From Malachius bipustulatus (lineage: Eukaryota; Arthropoda; Insecta; Coleoptera; Melyridae): DNA of 64,000 nt. Below the pieces are notes generated by a model. It had not been told where the DNA came from. It did no database searches and saw nothing but the letters and a program-made list of their open reading frames with translations. The position numbers were made by a program, and so were the translations under genes. Shown one piece after another: positions 7,848-58,569 of this stretch (its first letter is position 1; each line of letters opens with the position of its first letter). Location: NCBI GenBank assembly GCA_910589415.1, contig OU342630.1, positions 26,383,867 to 26,447,866 of the forward strand. The letters are read 5' to 3'.

Positions 7848-8208
7848 GATATACGGTTTTGGCCGTAAAACGATGATACGTAGTTTAAGTCGTGGGCTCT
7901 CGTCGGTACTAGTCGTTAGTCGTATTAGTAGATGACATGCAGGTTTTATTATTGAAAATTAAAAACGACATCTGCTGAAAGACAACACAAGTTAACGTAA
8001 AGAAGACAGAAGGCAAGTATACTCAATGATTAATTCATAGAAGAGTGAATTGCAGGTCAATGATTATAAAGCAATTAGAGTGCAATTACTAGCCTGTTAG
8101 ATGGGGTCGGAGAATTCTCCATCACCCTAACAGTTGTCATGATGGCAGTGCCCGAAACTCCAACTAGAGAGTTTGCTTCCGCATCCAACAGCAGAGCCTT
8201 CCAGAGTA

Positions 8209-8268
8209 CCAGAACAAGCACAGACACGTGTTTCGTTCTACTGGAACTCATCAGTGTGCTGCATCTGG
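8209..8268 (-). ncRNA. Type I hammerhead ribozyme (minus strand, intact-looking)
   Basis: Read on the minus strand. Stem I has two helices, CCAGA/TCTGG and GCACA/TGTGC, separated by an internal loop TGCA/TTGT. The catalytic core CTGATGA is at 8254-8248. Stem II is GTTC-CAGTA-GAAC. GAAA follows at 8234-8231. Stem III is the palindrome ACACGTGT, and cleavage would fall after GTC (complement of 8223). All invariant core bases are present. The loopless, self-complementary stem III is what is seen in metazoan minimal hammerheads thought to act as dimers. Activity is inferred from sequence only. Confidence 0.85.
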
Positions 8269-8432
8269 AGTGTCTGGAGGATGCTGTCGGATGAACGGAA
8301 ATTGGCCCCTCTTAAGACAAGAATTAACACGGATCTCCGTGTGGTGTAAATAGAGCGACATCTAGCGGTCAGTCTACTCAATGATTAATTCATAAAAGAG
8401 TGTTGTCATGATGGCAGAGCTATCATAAGTAC

Positions 8433-8456
8433 GAAACACGTGTCTGAGCTTGTTCT
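8433..8456 (+). ncRNA. 3' half of a hammerhead ribozyme (broken copy)
   Basis: CGAAACACGTGTC followed by a stem I 3' strand (TGAGC, TTGT, TCTGG) matches the 3' half of the neighbouring ribozymes, but the upstream CTGATGAG and stem II 5' strand are missing, replaced by unrelated sequence at a rearrangement junction near 8416-8431. It cannot fold as a full ribozyme. Confidence 0.7.
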
Positions 8457-8855
8457 GGTACTCTGGAAGGCTCTGCTGTTGGATGCCGAAGCAAACTCTC
8501 TAGTTGGAGTTTCGGGCACTGCCATCATGACAACTGTTAGGGCGATGGAGGAATTCTCCGACCCCATCTAACATGCTAGTAATTGCACTCTATGTGCTTT
8601 ATACTCATTGACCTGCAATTGACTCTTTTATGAATTAATCATTGAGTATACTTGCCTTCTGTATTCTTCATTATTCGATTATCATCGACTGGCATTGGTA
8701 GTGTCTGGAACTGCAATTAACTTAGAGTGAACTCACGGTTAGTTCTTTAGACTGACCGCTAGATGTCGCTCTATTTACACCACACGAAGATCCGTGTTAA
8801 TTCTTGGCTTAAGAGGGGCCAATTTCCGTTCATCCGACAGCATCCTCCAGACACT

Positions 8856-8915
8856 CTAGATGCAGCACACTGATGAGTTCCAGTAGAACGAAACACGTAT
8901 CTGTACTTGTTCTGG
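8856..8915 (+). ncRNA. Type I hammerhead ribozyme (plus strand, slightly decayed)
   Basis: Core CTGATGA at 8870-8876, stem II GTTC-CAGTA-GAAC (8877-8889), GAAA (8890-8893), then CACGTATC with possible cleavage after C8901, and the stem I 3' strand TGTAC-TTGT-TCTGG. Compared with the minus-strand copy, stem III is ACACGTAT instead of ACACGTGT and stem I has a G-to-A change (TGTAC for TGTGC). The cleavage triplet becomes ATC, which the hammerhead rule NUH still allows. It is likely weaker than the intact copy. Confidence 0.75.
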
Positions 8916-9496
8916 TACTCTGGAAGGCTCTGCTGTTGCTGTTGGATGCGGAAGCAAACTCTCTAGTTGGAGTTTCGATCACTGCCATCATGACAACTGT
9001 TAGGGCAATGGAGGAATTCTCCGACCCCATCTAACAGGCTAGTAATTGCACTCTATATGCTTTATACTCATTGACCTGCAATTCACTCTTTTATGAACAA
9101 GTTAACATAGGCTATAATGTTTTAAATGCAGATTTTTTACAGCAACATTTAACAAAAATGCATTGTATAAATAATGCCATTGGAAAAAAAGAAAAAGTTT
9201 ATTACAAATCAATGATTCAAGTGCATGTCTCTTAAATTACAGATTCATGAACAAGAGTCATGTCGCTGCATAAAATTTTAATACAACCAGCTTATAAGGA
9301 GCAAACAATCCTCTTTGTCGGAGACAAGAACAACTGTGGCGCCGTCTAAGCTTTCATATTTCTAACATCATTCAATTTATCATTCAGGTTGGTATACTTT
9401 TCCTTGTCTTTGGAAGGAATCTAATATAATTATGCTCGGTTCAAAAACAGAGTGAGAAGGACTTAGGGGTATTGAAAATAATAATTATACCACAGA

Positions 9497-15992: not shown

Positions 15993-16475
15993 CAGATTTA
16001 TGATTATGTTTTTCTTGAACCAATTATGCTGGTTATATAATATTTGAGATTTCTTGGGATTCAGTTTCTAATTTTAATTTTGCCACTAAAGTTCTTTGCA
16101 GAACAAATTAAAAACTTTCGCACAGCACGCGAGGAGAAGACTAGGAGAAGTGTAAAGTTCACATATCCGTAACAACTCTACTGTTAGCTAGGACTATATA
16201 GAGACACGCTGTAATATAGACCTGTAAAAATTGCAGGTCACTACAATCAGAAAAGACCAGTTTTAAGATAAATATAACTTTCAATTTTGGTACGGTATGC
16301 GTGGCGTGGGTCTGACTGATATGATATGCTGATGAGTCCATAATAAGGACGAAATGGTACCGTCCATGTCTTCAGTCTTCTCCTCGCGTGGTGTGCGAAA
16401 GTTTCTAATTTGTTCTGTAAATAACCTTTAGTGACAAAATTAAAATTAGAACCTGGATCCCAAGAAAGCTCAAAT
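15993..16475 (+). mobile_element. Hammerhead-bearing foldback element with 12-bp target duplication
   Basis: The direct repeat ATATTTAGAGTT occurs at 15981-15992 and again across the right edge (its end at 18004-18015, separated from the element by a later insertion at 16480-18002). Arms of about 100 bases pair: GCGAGGAGAAGAC (16129-16141) with GTCTTCTCCTCGC (16375-16387), and AAACTTTCGCACA with TGTGCGAAAGTTT. The region between the arms contains a complete type I hammerhead. The 45 bases before the left arm (15993-16037) are unpaired. Inverted terminal units, an extra tail, a long variable target duplication and a hammerhead together resemble Penelope-like pseudo-LTRs or retrozymes. No protein is encoded. 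Confidence 0.75.
16314..16377 (+). ncRNA. Type I hammerhead ribozyme
   Basis: Stem I is made of GACTGA (16314-16319) pairing with TCAGTC (16372-16377) and ATATG (16324-16328) pairing with CATGT (16365-16369), with an internal loop TATG/CT. The core CTGATGA is at 16329-16335. Stem II is GTCC-ATAATAA-GGAC (16336-16350). GAAA is at 16351-16354. Stem III is a short ATGG-TA-CCGT, self-complementary around GGTACC. The cleavage triplet GTC is at 16362-16364. Every invariant core position is present, and the stem I internal loop is where tertiary contacts form in fast hammerheads. Self-cleavage is inferred, not shown. Confidence 0.88.
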
Positions 16476-16479
16476 AATA

Positions 16480-18026: not shown

Positions 18027-20933
18027 CAGTAAATGACGGTAGAAATTCTTTCAAGAAAGATCGATTTCGCTGAAATTTTGACAGTAAGGGAATACCCCAA
18101 GAAGCAAAATCTACCCTATGCCAAGGTGGGTCTTTTCGCTGGGGGTGAATCCCACCCCAACTAAAGGGTGGTAATTTAAAAAAAAACTCCAGGAATCCAT
18201 AGAAGGATGGATTTGAATCTAAAAATGTTCATTAGAAGTTTTTCGAAACATCAATACTTTTTGAGATATCGGTGATCGAAAATGAAATTTTTTTTCGAAA
18301 ATAACCACGTTTCTTGACGATTTTTCACATATAACTCAAAAACTATTTATTTTATCAAAAAACTGTGATAAAAATTGTTGGTTATGAAAAGCCGAAGAAT
18401 TTCGTTTCTTATTATTCAATGTAAATCCAAAAAAAAAGTTATAGCTCACTGAAGGTAGGACTCATTTTTTTCAACGAAAAATTAACAGATTTCAACATTG
18501 AATTACGAAAAAACGGTACGTTTCACGATGAAAGTGCTTATGATCTTTTTTAAAGCACATTAAAAAACCTTCAAAATACGTTTTTCTTGAAGTCCTCTAC
18601 CATAAAAATTAACGGTGTTATGGTGAAAATAAAAGTTGGTTTCTATTTTTTTACGAGAAAAATCAACAATGAAACGCTTCTCATTACTACTCTAATTGGA
18701 ATTAAATGTTACAAATGTACAAATTTCTCTTTATCTTAACATTATAAATATTATCGAAAAGTTTGATCAATTTCAAATGCTTTTTGAATAAACATATCAT
18801 CAAAGTAAACTAGGTATTTTTGAAATATTAACAAAAATTACTTTTTTCAAAAATAGCTCAGAAAATAAACCATATACGTAAAAATTGCTAGAGTACAAAA
18901 GTAAGCATTTTCATTCCAAAAAATTTTTTTTTACTTGTAGCTTAAAAATTAAAATTCTTCCAGATATGGCTTGTAAAAGTTAGCATTGGTACGAAATCAG
19001 TATCGCGCTTGAGCCCTTTCACCGTTGACTTTTATAAAATGAAGGGATTGAGAAATATGAAACTTATTAGAGTCTGTACACTGAGAGTTGTCTGTTGTGA
19101 TAACTAAGGATACATCATCTCGTTATGTTTCTTACTCCTTCTATTGCATTGCATAGTCAATCGAGTTAAATTGGGACGTATTGTCAGAAATGCGTTTGAA
19201 TCGTCAGCAATTCTAAAAATATAAGCGAGAGTGAGACGGAAGTACGACTCGCGTCTTGATACGCTTAGATTGATACGATATTACGATAAGATTGTTGTCC
19301 AGCTGATCGGCTACTGTCAGTAGTGTCAGTGACAGCGCTAAATATACTAATGAGGTTTGTGTTGTGATTTGAAATGTTTTTAAAATGAAATTAGCAGAAT
19401 TACCTGTGATATTGTACGATGTGATAAACTATGAGTAACTTAATAATTGCTCGAATGCCTAAAATCTATTTCCTTGTTTTTATACAGGTAAAAAAAACGG
19501 ACTGGGTATATTATCGCAACGAAATACCTACAAAAAATTACAAAAAATGCCTGGGACACGATTGAACTCCCTAGTACGTGGTCTTGTGGTTAAATTGCTG
19601 GAATATTTTACTTGCAGAATAAGAAAACGGAGGTGTTATTCTTTCTTTTAAACGGCAACCAGCAGGTAGGTGACATGATATTTCTATCGTGATGATAACA
19701 ATAATAATTATTATCATTCTTATTTACTTGCATTATATATATTTGTTATCAAAAAGTTGCAAGGCGGCTCTACTTCGTCAATAACTTGTCGAAATAATAT
19801 ATTTGTAGGATATTCATTATTCCTCAACACACGTCACTGACACGAACTGCGATACCACATCTGGTTCGACTTAGAAATAAGTGTACGAATCAAATCGAAT
19901 TAAATGAAATTGTTTAGTCAGAATCAGTGTGGCATGACAACGGACAACACTCAGTGGACAGACGATACATGAGCTTATGGGCGATAAATTTCCCTACAAA
20001 ATCCTTTTTTTATCTCTAGTCCGAAATGCAACGGAAAAAACTAAAAAAAAAAACAAACTCATTTTTTTTTTTAATTTCGAAGCAGCTAAATTTTGAAGCA
20101 GGGAGATGCGTATACTGAGCAGGCCGAAGCCATGTTGTCTCTTTGTGAAAGAAGAAGCACGTGTTTTGTGACATCTCTAAATATTTATTGTTTATGTACT
20201 TACATTTTTTATTCAATAATAATCTATTGGTAAGTTCGATGATTGTTGTTTAAATTTAAAATAAAACTGTTGACTTTAATTTAAAATTGACACGAATAAA
20301 GAAGGTGATTATAAAAAAATAATACTTACAACGATTTAACATTGTAATTTTTTCCTCCCTTCTTCCTGGTGAGGGGTAGGTACTTATTAAGGGATGCAAA
20401 TTTCGAAATACATATTCTGAGATAATGAACTCAAAAAAATTACTAATTTGTTCTAATGAGGCATCATACATTAATTTAAAAAATGTTTTTTTTATATTTT
20501 TTATTTTTTAATGTACTAGGGGTGGATTTTAGGGGATGAAAACTAATTATAACAATTCCCTTAAGATGTCTACTATTTAAATATAACAATTTATGAACAA
20601 GAAAACAAAATTTTTTCAATTTTATGTCAAAAGATATCAAAAAGGGTGTAAGGAATAAAATAGTAATTGAAAAATCACAAATAGTTTTTAAAACTTAATA
20701 ACTATCATTAATCAAAAGCTTTATACATTTTTTCATTCGTTAGGTAAATGCCTAAATTTGTAAATTTATCAATTTTTGTCAATTAGGGGTAGTTTTCACC
20801 CCTAACAGCACACATCGGCATAGGGTGGATTTTGAAGTGGATGATAGGTAGAGCTTAATTCCAAATTTTGAATAAAATGCATCTTTCTCGAAAGAATTTC
20901 TAGGTTGTACCGTCTTTTTACCGTCATTTACTG
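18027..20933. mobile_element. Large foldback element with CAGTAAATGACGG ends
   Basis: The left end CAGTAAATGACGGTAGAAAT and the right end (reverse complement CAGTAAATGACGGTAAAAAG) are inverted repeats. Similarity continues for several hundred bases with divergence (TCTACCCTATGCC at 18110 against GGCATAGGGTGGA at 20818; GGGGTGAATCCCACCCC against CACCCCTAA). The left flank is TA; the right flank is TTA. The interior is AT-rich and includes a nested family B element at 19072-19963. No transposase is seen. Confidence 0.7.
19072..19963 (+). mobile_element. Family B element copy 2 (nested)
   Basis: It is collinear with 6939-7847 over its whole length, with few differences, for example GTCTGTACACTGAGAGTTGT at the left, ACTCAGTGGACAGAC at the right, and GTGCTAAATATACTAATG-like internal blocks. 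The small MPGKR frame is broken (a 1-base loss in CCTAAAATC and GGACACG for GGAAACG). It lies inside the 18027-20933 foldback and so is younger than that element. No clear target duplication. Confidence 0.75.
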
Positions 20934-26508: not shown

Positions 26509-27044
26509 CCTAATTCAAAAGTCCCATTTTGCATTAAGTTCCGATGCAAAATACACCATTTTGCGAGATCTGCGAATGGTCAAGTTTTTGACTGCCGAGG
26601 GTAATCCTACACAGTGTGTAATCCTACACAGTCTCGTTCACTGCAGCAATGTTTTCTGCAGACCGCAAATCATGACGACGTACGGGTCCTGTTTGATTGT
26701 TGACTGAAGCCTGAAGCAGTTAATTCAAATTAACTGCAAGTTAGCTCAACAGGATGATTGTGTTCACCATAAAAATCACGTAGCGCACGAAACATAGCTC
26801 CAACTGAACACTCATTTTGACAGTGGAGTTTAATCATTTGAACGCGTTGTTAAACACTGTAACTTTCCAAGATAATTTTGTCTTACATCTAACAGGTGTA
26901 GCTTCACCTCCATGGCTGCTATGTACTGTCAAAGTTCAAGCGCCCCTATTGAATAACCCTCTAGATAATTTAAACATGTGTCAATATCAGCATTAGGTAT
27001 GCTCTATGATGAAAGTATAGGCGCTACTCAGCAATGCAAATATG
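26509..27044. other. Intronic sequence, nothing firm
   Basis: A short duplicated phrase CCTACACAGT (26609 and 26624) and the words TTAACTGCAAGTTAGC are seen. It may be further 5' debris of the non-LTR relic, but no motif can be read. Confidence 0.3.
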
Positions 27045-27752
27045 GTTTGTCCAGTGAGTGTTGTCCGTTGTGATAACTATAAGGATACATCGTCTCGTTA
27101 TATTTCTTACTCCTTCTATTGCCAATCTATAGTCAATCGAGTTAAATTGGGACGTATTGTCAGAAAAACGTTTAAATCGTCAGCAGTTCTAAAAAGATGA
27201 GCGAGAGTGAGACGGAAGTACGACTCGCGTCGTGATACGCTTAAAATCTTGAATGCCTAAAAATCTATTTCCTTGTTTTTCTAAGGTTTGAAATAACAGG
27301 GTACCTATATTTTCGCAAATAACTACACAAAATTACACAAAATGCCTGGAAAACGATTTAACTCCCTAGGACGTGGTCTTGTGGTTGAATTGCTAGAATA
27401 TTTTACTGCAGAAAAAGAAGACGAAGATCGTATGCTTTATTCAAACGCCACCCAGCAGGTAGGCTAATGCATTATATTTAAAATCATGATTATAACAATT
27501 ATTATCATTTTTATTTACTTGCATTATATATTTTTGTTATCAAAAAGTTTCAAGACTCTACTTAATACCTAATAAAATAATATACCTATTTTTAGGATAT
27601 TCATTATTCCTCAACACACACCACTGACGCGAACTGAGATACAACTTTTGGTTCGATTAGAAATAAGTCTACCTACGAATCAAATAAAATTAATGAAATT
27701 GTTCAGTCAGGATCAGTGTGGCATCACAACGGACAACACTCACTGGACAAAC
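27045..27752 (+). mobile_element. Family B element copy 3 (708 bp)
   Basis: Ends GTTTGTCCAGTGAGTGTTGT and, reverse complemented, GTTTGTCCAGTGAGTGTTGT: a perfect match for at least 20 bases, better than in the other two copies. The palindrome continues a little outward (AATATG / CATATT). It lacks the middle-left part found in copies 1 and 2 (from GATTGATACGATATTACG to the start of the small frame). It carries the best-preserved MPGKR exon. Confidence 0.75.
27342..27458 (+). CDS. Small conserved exon-like frame in family B element
   Basis: Thirty-nine codons from ATG 27342, MPGKRFNSLGRGLVVELLEY then FTAEKEDEDRMLYSNATQQ, ending CAG directly before GTAGGC, a plausible splice donor. In copies 1 and 2 the same start and GLVV.LLEYF core are present but frameshifted. 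The predicted peptide is helical and acidic after the first 20 residues. I do not recognise the family. It may be the first coding exon of the parent transposase or a captured host exon. No partner exon is visible in the 300 bases that follow. Confidence 0.4.
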
Positions 27753-28657
27753 CATATTCAGGTATCTATTTACTCTAAACTCAATTATTAAGGGATTGGC
27801 TGCGGTCAACTGAGAAAACCCAGTACAATTTACGTGTTTCATAATAATGTAAGTGTTGAAAGATACTATGCTTGTACAGGTGTCATGTCGATTTCACGTA
27901 ATACATCCATCCTATAGTAGGATTAACTTTAAAAAGTCAGATGTGACGTCACACTAACCGTCCGAATTAATATTTTTAATTTCACCAGAAAATGTCAAAC
28001 AGTTAATTGTCAAGTTGTGAACGAGCGTAAATTATTGAAGGAATCATTCAAACAATTAATTGAAACGCTTACGTCAGTTTGAGAGCCACTGACAACTACA
28101 TAAAATTTATTCACGTAATGACATTCTATCCTCTGTGTTGTGCATTTAATTCTCATTCAAAACCAATGTTGACGTATAGGTACTTATTTATGCGGGATGA
28201 AGTGTTTAGACAAATTGGACGGTTACTATAAAAACCACGTAGGTATATGAAACAAAATAAATCGAACTATCAAAAGGATGTGTATTCTTAATCGATACGT
28301 ATGACTTTTTAGACTTTATTGGACTATACACTAACAGGGGTATTAAGTGGGTACCGTAGGTATGTACAGTTTTTTTCAAATAAAACTGGGACAACTTGTT
28401 TGTAGTGTTGTATTTGTGGGTTTCAGAATGTTAGTTGTCACCTAACTTCAATAAATATTTTGACGATACCTAACAAAAGGACATTATTATAATTTATTAC
28501 AGTGAATAAATTATAATGAATAATAATGAAGTTAAAAATGAAGAATGTAATTTTGATTTTTTGAAGTTTTAATTTTTTGACAGAGGACTGTACCTACCTA
28601 CTTCAAATTATATCGAGCGAATAAAATCATAAATTTCACTTTATTTCTGAAGCTTAC
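27753..28657. other. Intronic sequence, nothing recognised
   Basis: No frame or repeat that I can support. Confidence 0.4.
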
Positions 28658-33269: not shown

Positions 33270-36200
33270 TCAGACTGCAGGTAGGGATGGGGGGTTGAGG
33301 GACAGTATATCAGAGGTAGTGTAGGGTTCCAACTCCGTGAGATGTTTCCGGAGATACGCACTGTACGCTGAGAACCCAACAGTTGCAGGATCTATTTTGA
33401 AGTGGTTCAGGTATTTGATAGATGCGTACGTGAATGTCCTTTCTGAAGACGACAGATGGTGTGTAGGAGGTCTAAACAAATTGAACCTGGTACTGTAGTG
33501 ATGGGTGAATCGGTAAGGTAAAAGTCCATCCTGATTTTTGTGGATCAGTTTGAGCAGAGAGAAGACATACAAAGCAGGCACGGTAAGAAGTCCAAGCCGC
33601 CTGAAATGGCCTCTGCATGACTGCTGCATTGACAAGCCTGTCAGGATCCTAATCGCTCTCTTTTGAAGAAGAAAAACCCTTCGCAGAGATCTCTCAGACC
33701 CACCCCAGACGGCCAGCCCATAGTTCACGTGGCTGATGAAATGCCCATAATAAGCAAAGAGAAGAACCTCAGGGGACACCGTGTGCTGAAGGCGTCTAAG
33801 AAGGAAGCAGACGCTAGCAAGACGACGGCATAAATGATCTGTGTGTGCCGACCAGTTTAGGTTCTGGTCGATGTGGAAGCCCAAAAACTTCACCACGCCC
33901 TTCGGCTCGATCAAGGCACCATCGGTGGGTATGGAGGGTAAAGGTGGAAGATGTGATCGGCTAGAGTGAAAATCAATCAGCTCAGTTTTGTCTAAGTTAA
34001 GTTTTAGTTCATTGGCCCTGAGCCATAAACTTGCTCTTTTCAACGGGAGTTGAATGGTATCTATCAGACTAAGAGGGTCGCCTGGTTTTATCCTAATAAG
34101 AATTGTTGTATCATCAGCATAGTTAACACAGATTGAATTTGGGGAGGTAATTTTGGGGCCCAGATCGTTAATGAAGATAAGAAAAAGAAGTGGACCGAGA
34201 ACACTACCCTGTGGCACCCCAGAGGAGACTGGAGCAAAAGGTGATCGCACAGGTCGGCCATCAGACCCAGTAATCTGAACCGCCTGTGTTCTTCCCTGTA
34301 GGTAGCTGGTAAACCAAGAAAGGGGCAATCCACGAACTCCGACATTCTCCAGTTTCCGAAGGAGGCACTCGTGGCACACACTGTCGAAGGCCTTGGAGAG
34401 ATCCAAAAGCCAGCCCACAGTGCGCATCCCCTCCTCCAAACCCTGAGATATGAAGTCCGTAAGCTCCACAAGAGCCGTCTGGGTAGATCTGTTTTTAAGA
34501 AAACCATGCTGGGAGCGGGAAAGGATCTTTGTTTTGTCTAGAAAGTCAATAAGACGAGATGAGACAAGAGATTCAAGAATTTTATCAAATACCGATAGTA
34601 GACTAATCGGTCGGTAGTTTTCAGGGTTTTTGACGTCGCCCTTTTTAAAAATAGGCTTAACTAACGCTGCTTTGAGATCTTCGGGGAATACACCAGTCTG
34701 AAAGGAGCTGTTGTAAATTTCTGATAATGGCTGAGCAAGCTCAGCAATGCAATACCTGGCAACAAAAGAGGGAATCTCGTCCAAGCCCGAAGACTTCTTA
34801 CTTTTAAACCTGGAAACTATTTCTATAATTTCCCGAGGTGACGTCGGAAAAAATACGAAGGAAGAAGAGGCGTGTGTTGACATGTTGGATTCGTGAGTGT
34901 GACTATATGTGGGAGAGTCATTTGAAAGAAAGACGGAATTGAGCATCTCTGTCATTTCTTCAGGATCAGTCGTCACCTTGCTTCGGTACTCAAGTTCTAA
35001 GATTTTATGAGAAGTGTTTATTGACTTGCATTGGTTGTTTATGAGGGTCCATCCTGCTTTGATGGGATTCTCTGATTCACTGATAAAGACGTCGTTACAG
35101 CGCTTGGTCTCCTGCCTCACCAGGTACCCAAACCGTCGCTTTAGGCTGCACAGCCGAGTTCTGAACAGCTGGTTGGACGTGTTTATTAAAGGATTTAGGA
35201 GATTAATCGTGTCGTATAGTTGACGAATTTCAGAGGTGAGCCACCTGGGACTGGAGAGTCTAGGCCCATGAACTCTACATCTCCTGAGTGCGAAGTATTT
35301 GTTGAAGTAGAATGAAAGAGTGTCAGAGAAGCAGGAGTATTTCGAATTCGTATCAGGGGCATCCAGAACTTCGTGCCAGCCCAAACGCCGGAGTTCGTTT
35401 TGCAGCTGTGCAAGGAGAAGGGGGTCTTTTATATCTCTCTTCCATGTCATCAGGGGTTTGTCGGCGAGACCGCGGGTGTAAGCCGTCTCAGAAACTCCAA
35501 GGGCCACATGCAGTCCAAAGTGGTCTGATAGAAAAGTTGGCAAGATTTGACTATCGAGCAACTGAAAAATACCAGAAATCGCGACGTTATCGATGCATGT
35601 TGACGAGGTGTTGGTAACTCTTGTTGGGTCCCTAAAACAAAGTCGAAAACCATAAGAGAAGAGAGTCTCGGTCAGGCTGGAGGTGTTGGCGTTCTCACAG
35701 AGTACGTCAATATTGAAGTCTGCAGCCAGAACCACATTATTTGTGATCCGGATGGCCGCGTCAAGCAATCCGTCTAGGTGACGAATGAAATCTCTTACAG
35801 GGCAGGCAGGTGATCGATATGTAGATATAATTAGTGCTTTCTGAGACCGAAATTTGGTTTCGGTTGCCGATATTTCACACACGAGTGGTTGCGAAAGAGA
35901 GCAGAGGTTATGAACAACCCTACACTGAATGTCGGACCTGCCATAGATAGCCGAGCCCCCGTAACCTGACTGCCTGCAGAAGGAAGAAGAAAGGTTGTAA
36001 TGATCGATTTTGATCTTTTGAATGTTGTCAGATGTTAAGAAATGTTCGTTTAAACAAACAAACTCGGGAAATCCCAGATCAGAGATCATGATACCCAGAC
36101 CATCCACGGAGTTTTTAAGGGACTGAATGTTTATGTGTAGGACCCGGAAGTCATGTCTGGAATGATGGGGTGAGAGCACAGTTGATGTGAGAGAGGTAGT

Positions 36201-36308
36201 TGTTGAATTGTTTTGACTCCTCACAATTCGATGGCTGTATGGAAGGGAAGGTACGCTAGGAGAAGGTGAGGGTGGTTTGTAGGAGAGTTCTTGCTCCCGT
36301 CGCGTCAC
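33270..36308 (-). CDS. ORF2: apurinic-type endonuclease plus reverse transcriptase
   Basis: A 1012-codon open frame. Residues about 55-270 are an exonuclease-endonuclease-phosphatase type endonuclease: HINIQS (58), CLNEHF (85-90), AADFN (195-199), IDN (239-241) and SDH (261-263). The reverse transcriptase follows at about 540-800: NYRPISLLSVFDKILE (564), the first Asp in LLDLSKAFDS (635-643), SSGVPQGSVLGP (695-706), and catalytic YADD (730-733). A basic C-terminal region of about 200 residues has no zinc finger that I can see. The product would nick genomic DNA and copy the element RNA there. The first codon of the frame is GTG and overlaps the ORF1 stop (GTGA), so initiation may depend on ORF1 translation, or on a later Met. 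All catalytic motifs look intact. Confidence 0.9.
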   Translation of the reverse strand: MTRREQELSYKPPSPSPSVPSLPYSHRIVRSQNNSTTTSLTSTVLSPHHSRHDFRVLHINIQSLKNSVDGLGIMISDLGFPEFVCLNEHFLTSDNIQKIKIDHYNLSSSFCRQSGYGGSAIYGRSDIQCRVVHNLCSLSQPLVCEISATETKFRSQKALIISTYRSPACPVRDFIRHLDGLLDAAIRITNNVVLAADFNIDVLCENANTSSLTETLFSYGFRLCFRDPTRVTNTSSTCIDNVAISGIFQLLDSQILPTFLSDHFGLHVALGVSETAYTRGLADKPLMTWKRDIKDPLLLAQLQNELRRLGWHEVLDAPDTNSKYSCFSDTLSFYFNKYFALRRCRVHGPRLSSPRWLTSEIRQLYDTINLLNPLINTSNQLFRTRLCSLKRRFGYLVRQETKRCNDVFISESENPIKAGWTLINNQCKSINTSHKILELEYRSKVTTDPEEMTEMLNSVFLSNDSPTYSHTHESNMSTHASSSFVFFPTSPREIIEIVSRFKSKKSSGLDEIPSFVARYCIAELAQPLSEIYNSSFQTGVFPEDLKAALVKPIFKKGDVKNPENYRPISLLSVFDKILESLVSSRLIDFLDKTKILSRSQHGFLKNRSTQTALVELTDFISQGLEEGMRTVGWLLDLSKAFDSVCHECLLRKLENVGVRGLPLSWFTSYLQGRTQAVQITGSDGRPVRSPFAPVSSGVPQGSVLGPLLFLIFINDLGPKITSPNSICVNYADDTTILIRIKPGDPLSLIDTIQLPLKRASLWLRANELKLNLDKTELIDFHSSRSHLPPLPSIPTDGALIEPKGVVKFLGFHIDQNLNWSAHTDHLCRRLASVCFLLRRLQHTVSPEVLLFAYYGHFISHVNYGLAVWGGSERSLRRVFLLQKRAIRILTGLSMQQSCRGHFRRLGLLTVPALYVFSLLKLIHKNQDGLLPYRFTHHYSTRFNLFRPPTHHLSSSERTFTYASIKYLNHFKIDPATVGFSAYSAYLRKHLTELEPYTTSDILSLNPPSLPAV

Positions 36309-36540
36309 TTCCTCTGAAAAGGGGTATTGTATGATCTTGAGTTTTCCCTTGCTTTCACGAGGTAGTTCGTGTTTTCAGCCGCAAGGTGTGATCTAAGGGC
36401 CTTAAGATCATCCTCGGCGTCACTTCCGGTTAATCCATAGCTCTCGTAGAAACGTTTATAATACGCCATCAGGGCATTTCTCTCAGTAGGGAAACCCTCA
36501 GAAGCAAGTAGCAATCTGACGCTGTTCTTCGTTTCACCAT
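36305..36540 (-). CDS. ORF1 C-terminal fragment of the non-LTR element
   Basis: The open frame ends YNTPFQRK and stops in GTGA, overlapping ORF2 by four bases. It encodes a helical segment, LLASEGFPTERNALMAYYKR then FYESYGLTGSDAEDDLKALR. The N-terminal part of ORF1 (nucleic-acid chaperone and coiled coil) is absent because of the 5' truncation. Upstream of 36540 the reading cannot be followed. Not functional alone. Confidence 0.65.
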
Positions 36541-39420: not shown

Positions 39421-39991
39421 GGTTAGATGGCCACCCCGATTGCGCATGAAGTATTAAACAAAAATTGCCGCCACCATAGTTATAGTGGTGTACAAAATAC
39501 ACCAGCGCGAGTAGTTAAAGGTTAAACTCAAATTTAACTATGCTAATCTTCAAGGTGTTCCTGAGTGTTGATATCAATGGTGACCGCCTTTGACGCAAAT
39601 GCACTAAAGAAATCGAGACCCCCATTCAAGTCACAGGCAACTGCATCAAGTCCGCGAAGATAACAGCTCGCCATAATCATCTTAAACACAATATGACATC
39701 AATTCTCCAAGTAAAATGTTATGAATGCTTTGAAGAAATATATGCCAGAGATGTAGCAGGATTAAAGATTAAATAGATTTTTGAATATTATTGCTTTTGA
39801 TAAGGAATCAAAAAATGCGTTTATAATCGACCCTACAGTTAAATTTGAAACTAATGATAGATACATTTCAAGACATGAAAATTGAAATAGAGAAAAAAAT
39901 ATTTATGAACCATACGTAGTCCATTTTATGCAGAACATTTGAATAAAATATTTCTCTCTCTTTTGTTTTAGACAAATAATATACTTCTAAC

Positions 39992-40277
39992 CTGCAGACG
40001 CTACATGTCCAGTTGGCTGGATCCTCGTCTTCTGCAAGCTTACTGTAGCTGGCACAATCCTCACATACGCGCTGGGTACACTCGGCGCAAGTCCTACTGA
40101 AATCGTCTGGTTTAAAGGCCTTTAGGCAGACGCGACATGCTCCCGTTCTACTAGGTGGTTTTCCTGGTTCACTTTTCAAGGCAGGGGTAATAGGTGTTGG
40201 TGCAGAAGCTGGTGGCTTCTCTTCGGTAGGTGGATCCGGTTCAGGGACCAGGGACGGTCGTGGTGATATCTTTGTCA
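39992..40277 (-). CDS. Fife-like gene, zinc-finger exon
   Basis: A 286-nt exon. Acceptor TATTTCAG before TGACAAAG; with the G left by the previous exon it makes GTG ACA AAG. Donor after TGCAG at GTTAGAA, two bases into an Arg codon. After a Pro-rich stretch (PSLVPEPDPPTEEKPPASAP) comes the finger: CRVC-x12-CAEC-x4-CEDC-x16-CSVC, the four CxxC pairs of the RIM/rabphilin/Piccolo zinc-finger class. CEDCASYSKL and a W before the last CSVC fit Fife/Piccolo-type fingers better than the CGICHKTKFADG start of true RIM, as I remember them. In the family this region recruits active-zone and vesicle partners; for this protein that is inference. Confidence 0.85.
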
Positions 40278-40550
40278 CTGAAATAAAATAATAACTCTAT
40301 ATTTCAAAAATAATAATTTATTATAATTCTTGCATAACCAATCAGAATTCAGTATTAGTATATTTTAGGTAACCATTTTTTATTTTCTTTTGTTGGTCGA
40401 AGATAATATCTATGATAATAATAAGCGAGTTAAATTGAAGCTGAATTCAAAGCTGAAATAGCAAAGTTATTTTTTATGGAATGCTCTTATAGCTTATGGC
40501 ATTTTTAGAGTGCTTGATTTTATTAGAGTGTCTGATCATTTTAGAGTGGG

Positions 40551-58473: not shown

Positions 58474-58569
58474 GCGATTATGACCATTATTCACTTGATG
58501 ATGAGTGAGCGAGCTTAAGCGAGTGGCATTGTCATCACTCATCATCAAGTGAATAATGGTCATAATCGC
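58474..58569. repeat. Perfect 35-bp inverted repeat (hairpin)
   Basis: GCGATTATGACCATTATTCA with CTTGATGATGAGTGA is repeated exactly, inverted, after a 26-base spacer. It directly follows the 57731-58467 foldback. Confidence 0.75.

Follow-up and report, generated by a model that had tools for sequence, protein, structure and literature searches.

The window, that is, the whole 64,000-nucleotide stretch analysed, holds a two-armed array of hammerhead-ribozyme units between two target-site duplications (TSDs), together with the other features collected in Table 1. Long repeat pieces of the element (7997-9096) are 93-97% identical or complementary to one another. The preliminary description had placed three units of ~457 nt, one inverted and two in tandem, inside a perfect 10-bp direct repeat. 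The repeat is present and the arms are arranged as described; 457 nt is the length in this copy, and the unit of the family measures 461 nt. After correction for the TSD, the outer end of the left arm lies at unit position ~228, and within the same arm there is an internal jump from unit position 310 to 208. An ORF scan of the element found no closed stop-to-stop frame as long as 120 aa, in agreement with the earlier statement that no protein is encoded. The reverse transcriptase and GIY-YIG endonuclease of an autonomous Penelope-like element (PLE) are not encoded by it.

Table 1. Features of the window, with positions counted from its first nucleotide
Feature	Position	Strand	Remarks
Left TSD, ACAAGTTAAC	7987-7996		Direct repeat, 10 bp, perfect
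Left arm, minus-strand units	7997-8397	-	Outer end is the L start site
Complete type I hammerhead	8217-8260	-	Rfam Hammerhead_1, 32.6 bits, E 3.2e-4 for the window; gathering score 34
32-nt ribozyme core	8223-8254	-	Inside the stronger hammerhead
Centre join of the arms	8398-8427		Rearranged unit piece 8402-8420 plus filler
Right arm, plus-strand units	8428-9096	+	Outer end is the S start site, unit position ~190
Pieces of the right arm	8428-8444 (partial), 8445-8901 (full), 8902-9096 (partial)	+	
Initiation stem-loop, TATACTCA...TTGACCTGCAAT...TGAGTATA	8600-8650	+	Internal, complete copy; counterpart of the PLE B stem-loop
S site; L site	after ~8633; after ~8669	+	Next to the stem-loop at 8600-8650
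Second complete hammerhead core	8865-8906	+	Hammerhead_1, 18.6 bits, E 0.28 for 1301 bases
Predicted cleavage, plus-strand complete core	between 8901 and 8902	+	
Right TSD, ACAAGTTAAC	9097-9106		Direct repeat, 10 bp, perfect
106-bp inverted repeat	16038-16142 / 16374-16479		One arm lies beside the motif at 16311-16386
Second hammerhead-like motif, core CTGATGAGTCC..GGACGAAA	16311-16386	+	HH9, 23.9 bits, E 0.17; gathering score 52
LINE-type frame	33270-36374	-	1034 aa; endonuclease and reverse transcriptase domains
Exon-like frame	39868-40296	-	FYVE_2 zinc finger, 24.5 bits, below the cut-off of 27.2
Inverted repeat	58474-58569		Weak match to a plant miRNA model, 27.1 bits; gathering score 160

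As for the ribozymes, Hammerhead_1 is the best Rfam family for both. The stronger one has, by eye, a stem I (GCACA/TGTGC) with an internal loop and an outer CCAG/CTGG, a stem II (GTTC/GAAC), and ACACGTGT at stem III. Two complete cores and the type I form with an internal loop in stem I had been claimed, and both are consistent with these results; of the ribozyme in the middle unit (8428), just the 3' part is left. The proposed check with the Rfam type I model gave the expected family at scores below its threshold, since no Hammerhead_1 match in the window, nor in four other loci examined, reached the gathering score. The short stem III may lie behind this. The bare palindrome described for stem III holds for the minus strand, where ACACGTGT is palindromic; the complete core of the plus strand reads ACACGTAT. 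It had also been said that this stem implies dimeric cleavage. Because 2 bp capped by an ACGT loop are an alternative form of stem III, dimeric cleavage appears possible and is not implied. Considering copies below 93% identity, unit positions 438-460, which hold most of the core, show 1% divergence, compared with 5-19% in the other 23-nt bins.

Elsewhere in the window, no target duplication is clearly visible around the second hammerhead-like motif, and none of the six PLE pieces sampled from the genome matches it convincingly. The motif possibly belongs to another two-armed ribozyme element. Inverted repeats are many in the window, and the one with the plant miRNA match is one among them. 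The closest proteins found for the LINE-type frame are ~31% identical to it. The exon-like frame is perhaps, as we presume, part of a RIM-like gene.

Genomic copies, array ends and target sites

Counting genomic copies, which had been proposed as a check, gave 577 exact copies of the 32-nt core in the host genome (544 Mb, 52 contigs; 272 and 305 per strand), against 0 for the reversed core used as control. A DNA search with the whole element gave at least 299 matches (40 of 1233 candidates scored). Among 100 listed places of the 577, the 32 same-strand core spacings are mostly 461 (18), 462 (8) or 463 (4). Grouped by position, these 100 places give 53 clusters; 15 of them have cores on both strands, and in every one of the 15 the order is minus-then-plus. 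The remark that a mix of head-to-head and tandem units is not the usual form of a retrozyme was therefore right, and the mix is general among the places listed. Several arrays are built from units identical to units of other arrays, and the largest one measured (L033) has 16 units or part-units, so the activity of the family looks recent.

Two sets of loci were measured, which makes a census of 49 loci out of hundreds, in one genome. Set 1 has 39 loci, selected by likeness to the window copy: that copy itself and the 38 best-scoring matches to the window element. Set 2 has 10 loci, selected for cores on both strands from the 15 clusters mentioned above. In set 1, 29 of the 39 loci are two-armed and 10 are not. 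Pieces were measured against an observed unit of 461 nt, opened at the site of predicted cleavage.

The outer ends of the arms fall at two fixed unit positions ~35 nt apart, S at ~190 and L at ~225. Where a two-armed locus has a TSD of at least 10 bp (23 loci), S ends lie at 186-194 and L ends at 222-229; the classes were assigned by range, 180-208 for S and 212-245 for L. All 29 two-armed arrays of set 1 have one S and one L end, 28 of them by range and one (L045) by eye, since a small duplication breaks its right end. In set 2, the 8 classifiable loci of 10 are also S/L, the other two having a left end outside the piece (L048) or a missing left outer end (L055). If ends were independent with equal odds, 37 discordant arrays out of 37 would have a chance of ~1 in 10^11. 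Orientation is balanced, with 20 arrays S-left and 17 L-left (L045 counted as L-left; L048 and L055 left out). Leaving out L027, L048 and L055 (n=36), arms from the two sites show no clear difference in length (medians 709.5 and 636.5, Wilcoxon p 0.25), and the lengths of the two arms correlate weakly (Spearman 0.30, p 0.08).

In terms of target sites, a TSD of 10 bp or more (10-15 bp, modal 12-13 bp) is present in 23 of the 29 two-armed arrays and in 1 of 580 mispaired flanks taken from different loci. The direct repeats are thus not due to chance, which had been named as a way for the earlier reading to fail. Two further arrays of the 29 have TSDs of 8 and 9 bp, and in four none was found. 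Related empty sites were obtained for 3 of 25 joined-flank queries (L018, L035 and L042). The clearest is that of L042, which aligned with the LINE frame at window positions 33289-33721; at the L018 site 6 nt next to the duplication are missing, and the alignment of L035 is poor in that region. An empty site in the window's own flanking repeat was considered and rejected, as the related copies (19068-19967 and 27040-27757) stop short of the insertion point.

Furthermore, the target bases beyond the ends resemble the RNA just 3' of the start site. Matches out of 6 are 3.26 (S) and 3.43 (L), and shuffles that keep flank composition gave 2.06 ± 0.24 (S) and 1.99 ± 0.23 (L), with the observed values never reached in 2000 shuffles. 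AUUA follows both start sites, and the resemblance suggests that the primer end anneals to it.

Penelope-like element family B

A search of the genome for GIY-YIG endonucleases gave at least 775 first-look candidates, of which 150 were scored. Open frames reach 921 aa, and several matches lie in tandem with 3.1-3.5-kb spacing. Among the 150 scored candidates of 775, neighbours within 12 kb that switch strand do so minus-then-plus in 23 cases and plus-then-minus in 2, and both of the latter join matches of different score classes. One contig (C11, 84009 bases) carries 6 minus and then 18 plus PLE endonuclease matches at ~3327-bp spacing, mostly in 833-aa frames, and forms a giant head-to-head PLE array.

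Six PLE families were sampled, with letters assigned in this analysis. Family B (C17:397161) is the sole one that shares sequence with the retrozyme, in the form of TTATACCCATTGACCTACAAT...TTGGGTATACC, directly 5' of an ATG, against TTATACTCATTGACCTACAAT...TTGAGTATACC in the retrozyme. Its stem-loop has a local score of 40, with a maximum of 31 in 200 shuffles. The other five families were rejected as partners, with scores of 18-26 that lie within the null. The stems of PLE B and the retrozyme show one compensatory pair (C-G to U-A), and TCATTATTC recurs at the L site at nearly equal distance in both. An RT-initiation region common to the retrozyme and a genomic PLE is therefore found in family B. 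It spans ~55 nt, and beyond it blastn of the unit against a 2.24-kb PLE B piece gave no clear similarity. Just upstream of the PLE B stem-loop, by eye and by general hammerhead rules, lies what we take to be a hammerhead-like motif, CTGAAGA...CCCGAAACTAGTTGACAG, for which there was no Rfam match.

It had been predicted beforehand that PLE B copies would end at the corresponding sites. Nine of the ten PLE B pieces fetched do so, the tenth piece being internal, and three pairs among them are S/L with 12-13-bp duplications by eye. A search with the PLE B region gave at least 45 matches (40 of 263 candidates scored), of which 16 end at S, 18 at L, 11 at the query end and 0 elsewhere; the S and L ends lie at query positions 262-271 and 299-312. 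Paired by position, 13 of 13 PLE B pairs in the same scored candidates (40 of 263) are S/L and minus-then-plus, and 8 ends are unpaired. The 13 pairs include the three from the fetched pieces and a derivative, L074.

This derivative (C7:8897600-8898900) is a tandem of 2.2 units, each a 350-nt fragment of PLE B, set apart by runs of A; it has S and L ends, and its inverted arm is 34 bp long. It looks like a piece of polyadenylated mRNA that the same machinery integrated while jumping between RNA ends. As for PLE family A, the ends of one pair (L075/L076) differ by eye, at ~1117 and ~1165. A second pair has its left end outside the piece, and two pairs are too few to generalise.

The 602-aa frame of PLE B matches RVT_1 (39.2 bits) and GIY-YIG (33.0 bits). 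In this copy the frame is broken further upstream, and other copies have 823-aa frames. Among the best 120 of 515 relatives, the best named ones are proteins of the beetle Diabrotica (~44% identity), with butterfly and locust proteins lower. The label "insect" for the retrozyme is indirect, as its basis is that beetle proteins are the best named PLE homologues.

The ends of both the retrozyme and PLE B are alternatives ~30-40 bp apart, as in the tail of Penelope elements. The preliminary description had left a choice between a candidate retrozyme and a Penelope-type terminal array, and both hold, with retrozyme anatomy and the PLE B tail signature at the ends.

Template of the arms and proposed mechanism

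The 49 loci give 182 joins between neighbouring pieces on one strand, and 170 of these joins lie exactly at the 461/1 boundary. The 12 exceptions consist of small gaps where copies are old, of large nested gaps or of internal jumps. The inner ends, 78 in total, are spread over the unit, with 4 within 5 nt of the cleavage site and 18 in the bin 368-414, which indicates that the template usually did not end at the cleavage site. Folded as a circle, the unit reaches -173.5 kcal/mol, compared with -117.7 ± 7.2 kcal/mol for shuffled sequences, none of which (0 of 60) was as low.

In 7 of 30 both-strand loci (L009, L013, L018, L022, L023, L029 and L030), a variant private to the array and absent from all other loci is carried by all units that cover its position, in the one arm as in the other. 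One fixed variant is confined to one arm (L018, position 436). A nearest-neighbour comparison gives a weaker result: among 25 comparable loci, the nearest arm is strictly the own partner in 7, tied in 9 and at another locus in 9, the tied loci being young, identical arrays. Both arms would thus probably copy one monomer species, and gene conversion could be an alternative homogeniser. That one physical molecule templated both arms is inferred mainly from the absence of S/S and L/L arrays.

At the level of sequence, the retrozyme resembles PLE B in its stem-loop, in the matching S and L sites and their pairing, and in similar spacing and duplication length. We consider it very probable that it is a non-autonomous retrozyme mobilised in trans by PLE family B. 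In the mechanism that we propose, array transcripts would self-cleave and then be ligated to circles of ~461 nt. The PLE protein would bind the stem-loop and cut the target with a 3' stagger of 12-13 nt. The pair of 3' overhangs left by this cut (12-13 nt) would serve as primers for reverse transcription from S and L and would also account for the duplication. Both start sites would perhaps be on one circle. Each reverse transcriptase may circle the template for up to ~seven laps, giving opposed arms that end joining would unite in the middle.

The strict S/L pairing suggests that two halves of one reaction use one site each. For PAc, a Poseidon element of Anolis, cutting and extension of both strands by the protein, modelled as a dimer, were shown in vitro, with two start sites inside the RNA (PMC11167929), and the spacing and position of the retrozyme ends fit what would be expected of PLE "tail" start sites. 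On a more specific proposal our opinion is evenly divided: that the integration complex consists of one RNA and two reverse transcriptases obliged to start at different sites, which on a ribozyme-made circle would chase each other and leave two opposed multi-unit arrays. If true, PLE head-to-head arrays, such as the one of 6 minus and 18 plus ~3.3-kb units, would be products of two-enzyme copying of circular PLE RNA.

Instead of a circle, the template could have been an uncleaved linear multimer transcribed from an array, copied by two PLE enzymes from two primers. Exact 461/1 joins are expected in that case too, and so are internally homogeneous arrays, as a concatemer also gives identical units. 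However, many S and L sites per molecule should produce S/S and L/L arrays, of which there are 0 in 37, and the strong conservation of the core means that the transcripts should cleave. We hold a linear multimer to be unlikely, though deserving of attention. Cleaved linear monomers could also yield tandems by end-to-end template jumping, for which L074, with its poly(A)-tailed PLE B fragments between S and L ends, is a model. This sits badly with the exact joins (170 of 182) and with inner ends that have no clear peak at the cleavage site (4 of 78 within 5 nt), and it seems quite improbable for the retrozyme. Linear run-off was rejected on the same absence of a clear inner-end peak.

As for the inverted arm, snap-back self-priming of the first cDNA, made on an antisense template, has been put forward for the inverted repeats of PLEs because palindromes occur at the inverted junctions (PMC3846280). 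It predicts equal phase across the centre. Among 39 two-armed arrays, 38 lie at least 18 nt from equal phase, and the sole one within 5 nt (L052, C1:53747950-53749960), whose arms meet within 2 nt of it, compares with 0.9 expected by chance. The centre of L052 is either chance or a snap-back event. Snap-back also leaves the S/L ends unexplained, and with independent phases in 38 of 39 arrays it is disfavoured to the point of being very improbable as the general origin of the inverted arm. Lastly, repeats are easily misassembled, and an assembly artefact or recombination of tandem satellites might be imagined, but this is hardly credible when separate loci show target duplications, ends at fixed positions and related empty sites. 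Mobilisation by PLE B remains our preferred reading.

Meaning and comparison with known systems

The end structure and the common stem-loop point to the mobilising partner of the retrozyme, and the initiation region offers a small substrate for biochemistry. With strict pairing, the long-known "optional tail" of PLEs would make sense as one of the two halves of a two-primer reaction. What the arrays record in the genome looks like rolling-circle reverse transcription.

Animal non-LTR retrozymes are described as tandem repeats with circular RNAs, with PLEs as "a strong candidate" for their mobilisation (PMC7229834). The portion of PMC7761336 available to us gives no motif pointing to a mobilising partner of retrozymes. 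In PLEs, inverted pLTRs in head-to-head order have been described, one of the two bearing a tail (PMC3846280). Judging by titles and the starts of abstracts among the papers listed, we found no report of a retrozyme with head-to-head architecture or S/L pairing, which may be in print elsewhere.

The element is like the metazoan non-LTR retrozymes (Cervera and de la Pena 2020, PMC7229834), as described in the parts of that paper available to us, in having a type I hammerhead in each unit, here with scores below the gathering score of 34, and a weak stem III. It also has a tandem, non-coding, multicopy unit of a few hundred nt (461-nt spacing, 577 cores), TSDs longer than 4 bp, a highly self-paired RNA and PLEs in the same genome. 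Unlike them, it has head-to-head arms, an identified, very probable PLE partner, and two fixed ends ~35 nt apart, each used once. The words "inverted" and "head-to-head" have 0 occurrences in the main text of PMC7229834.

With plant LTR retrozymes (PMC4918200; features via PMC7229834) it has in common a non-coding nature, a hammerhead and, as we would infer here, a life cycle through circular RNA. According to the same partial source, those elements carry type III hammerheads in LTRs, have a 4-bp TSD and probably depend on Gypsy. The present element, with its type I hammerhead and mostly 12-13-bp TSD, is not one of them.

Finally, the retrozyme is unlike PAc and the Adineta Penelopes (PMC11167929, PMC3846280) in being 461 nt and encoding no protein. 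For PAc in vitro, the available portion of PMC11167929 reports no homology, in contrast to the putative priming microhomology of this retrozyme. In the portions of these sources available, the likeness lies in two adjacent internal RT start sites (the tail), the extension of both target strands, which would apply here, and a head-to-head inverted pLTR; the 8-10-bp TSD and the optional tail on one inverted pLTR are also counted as likeness.
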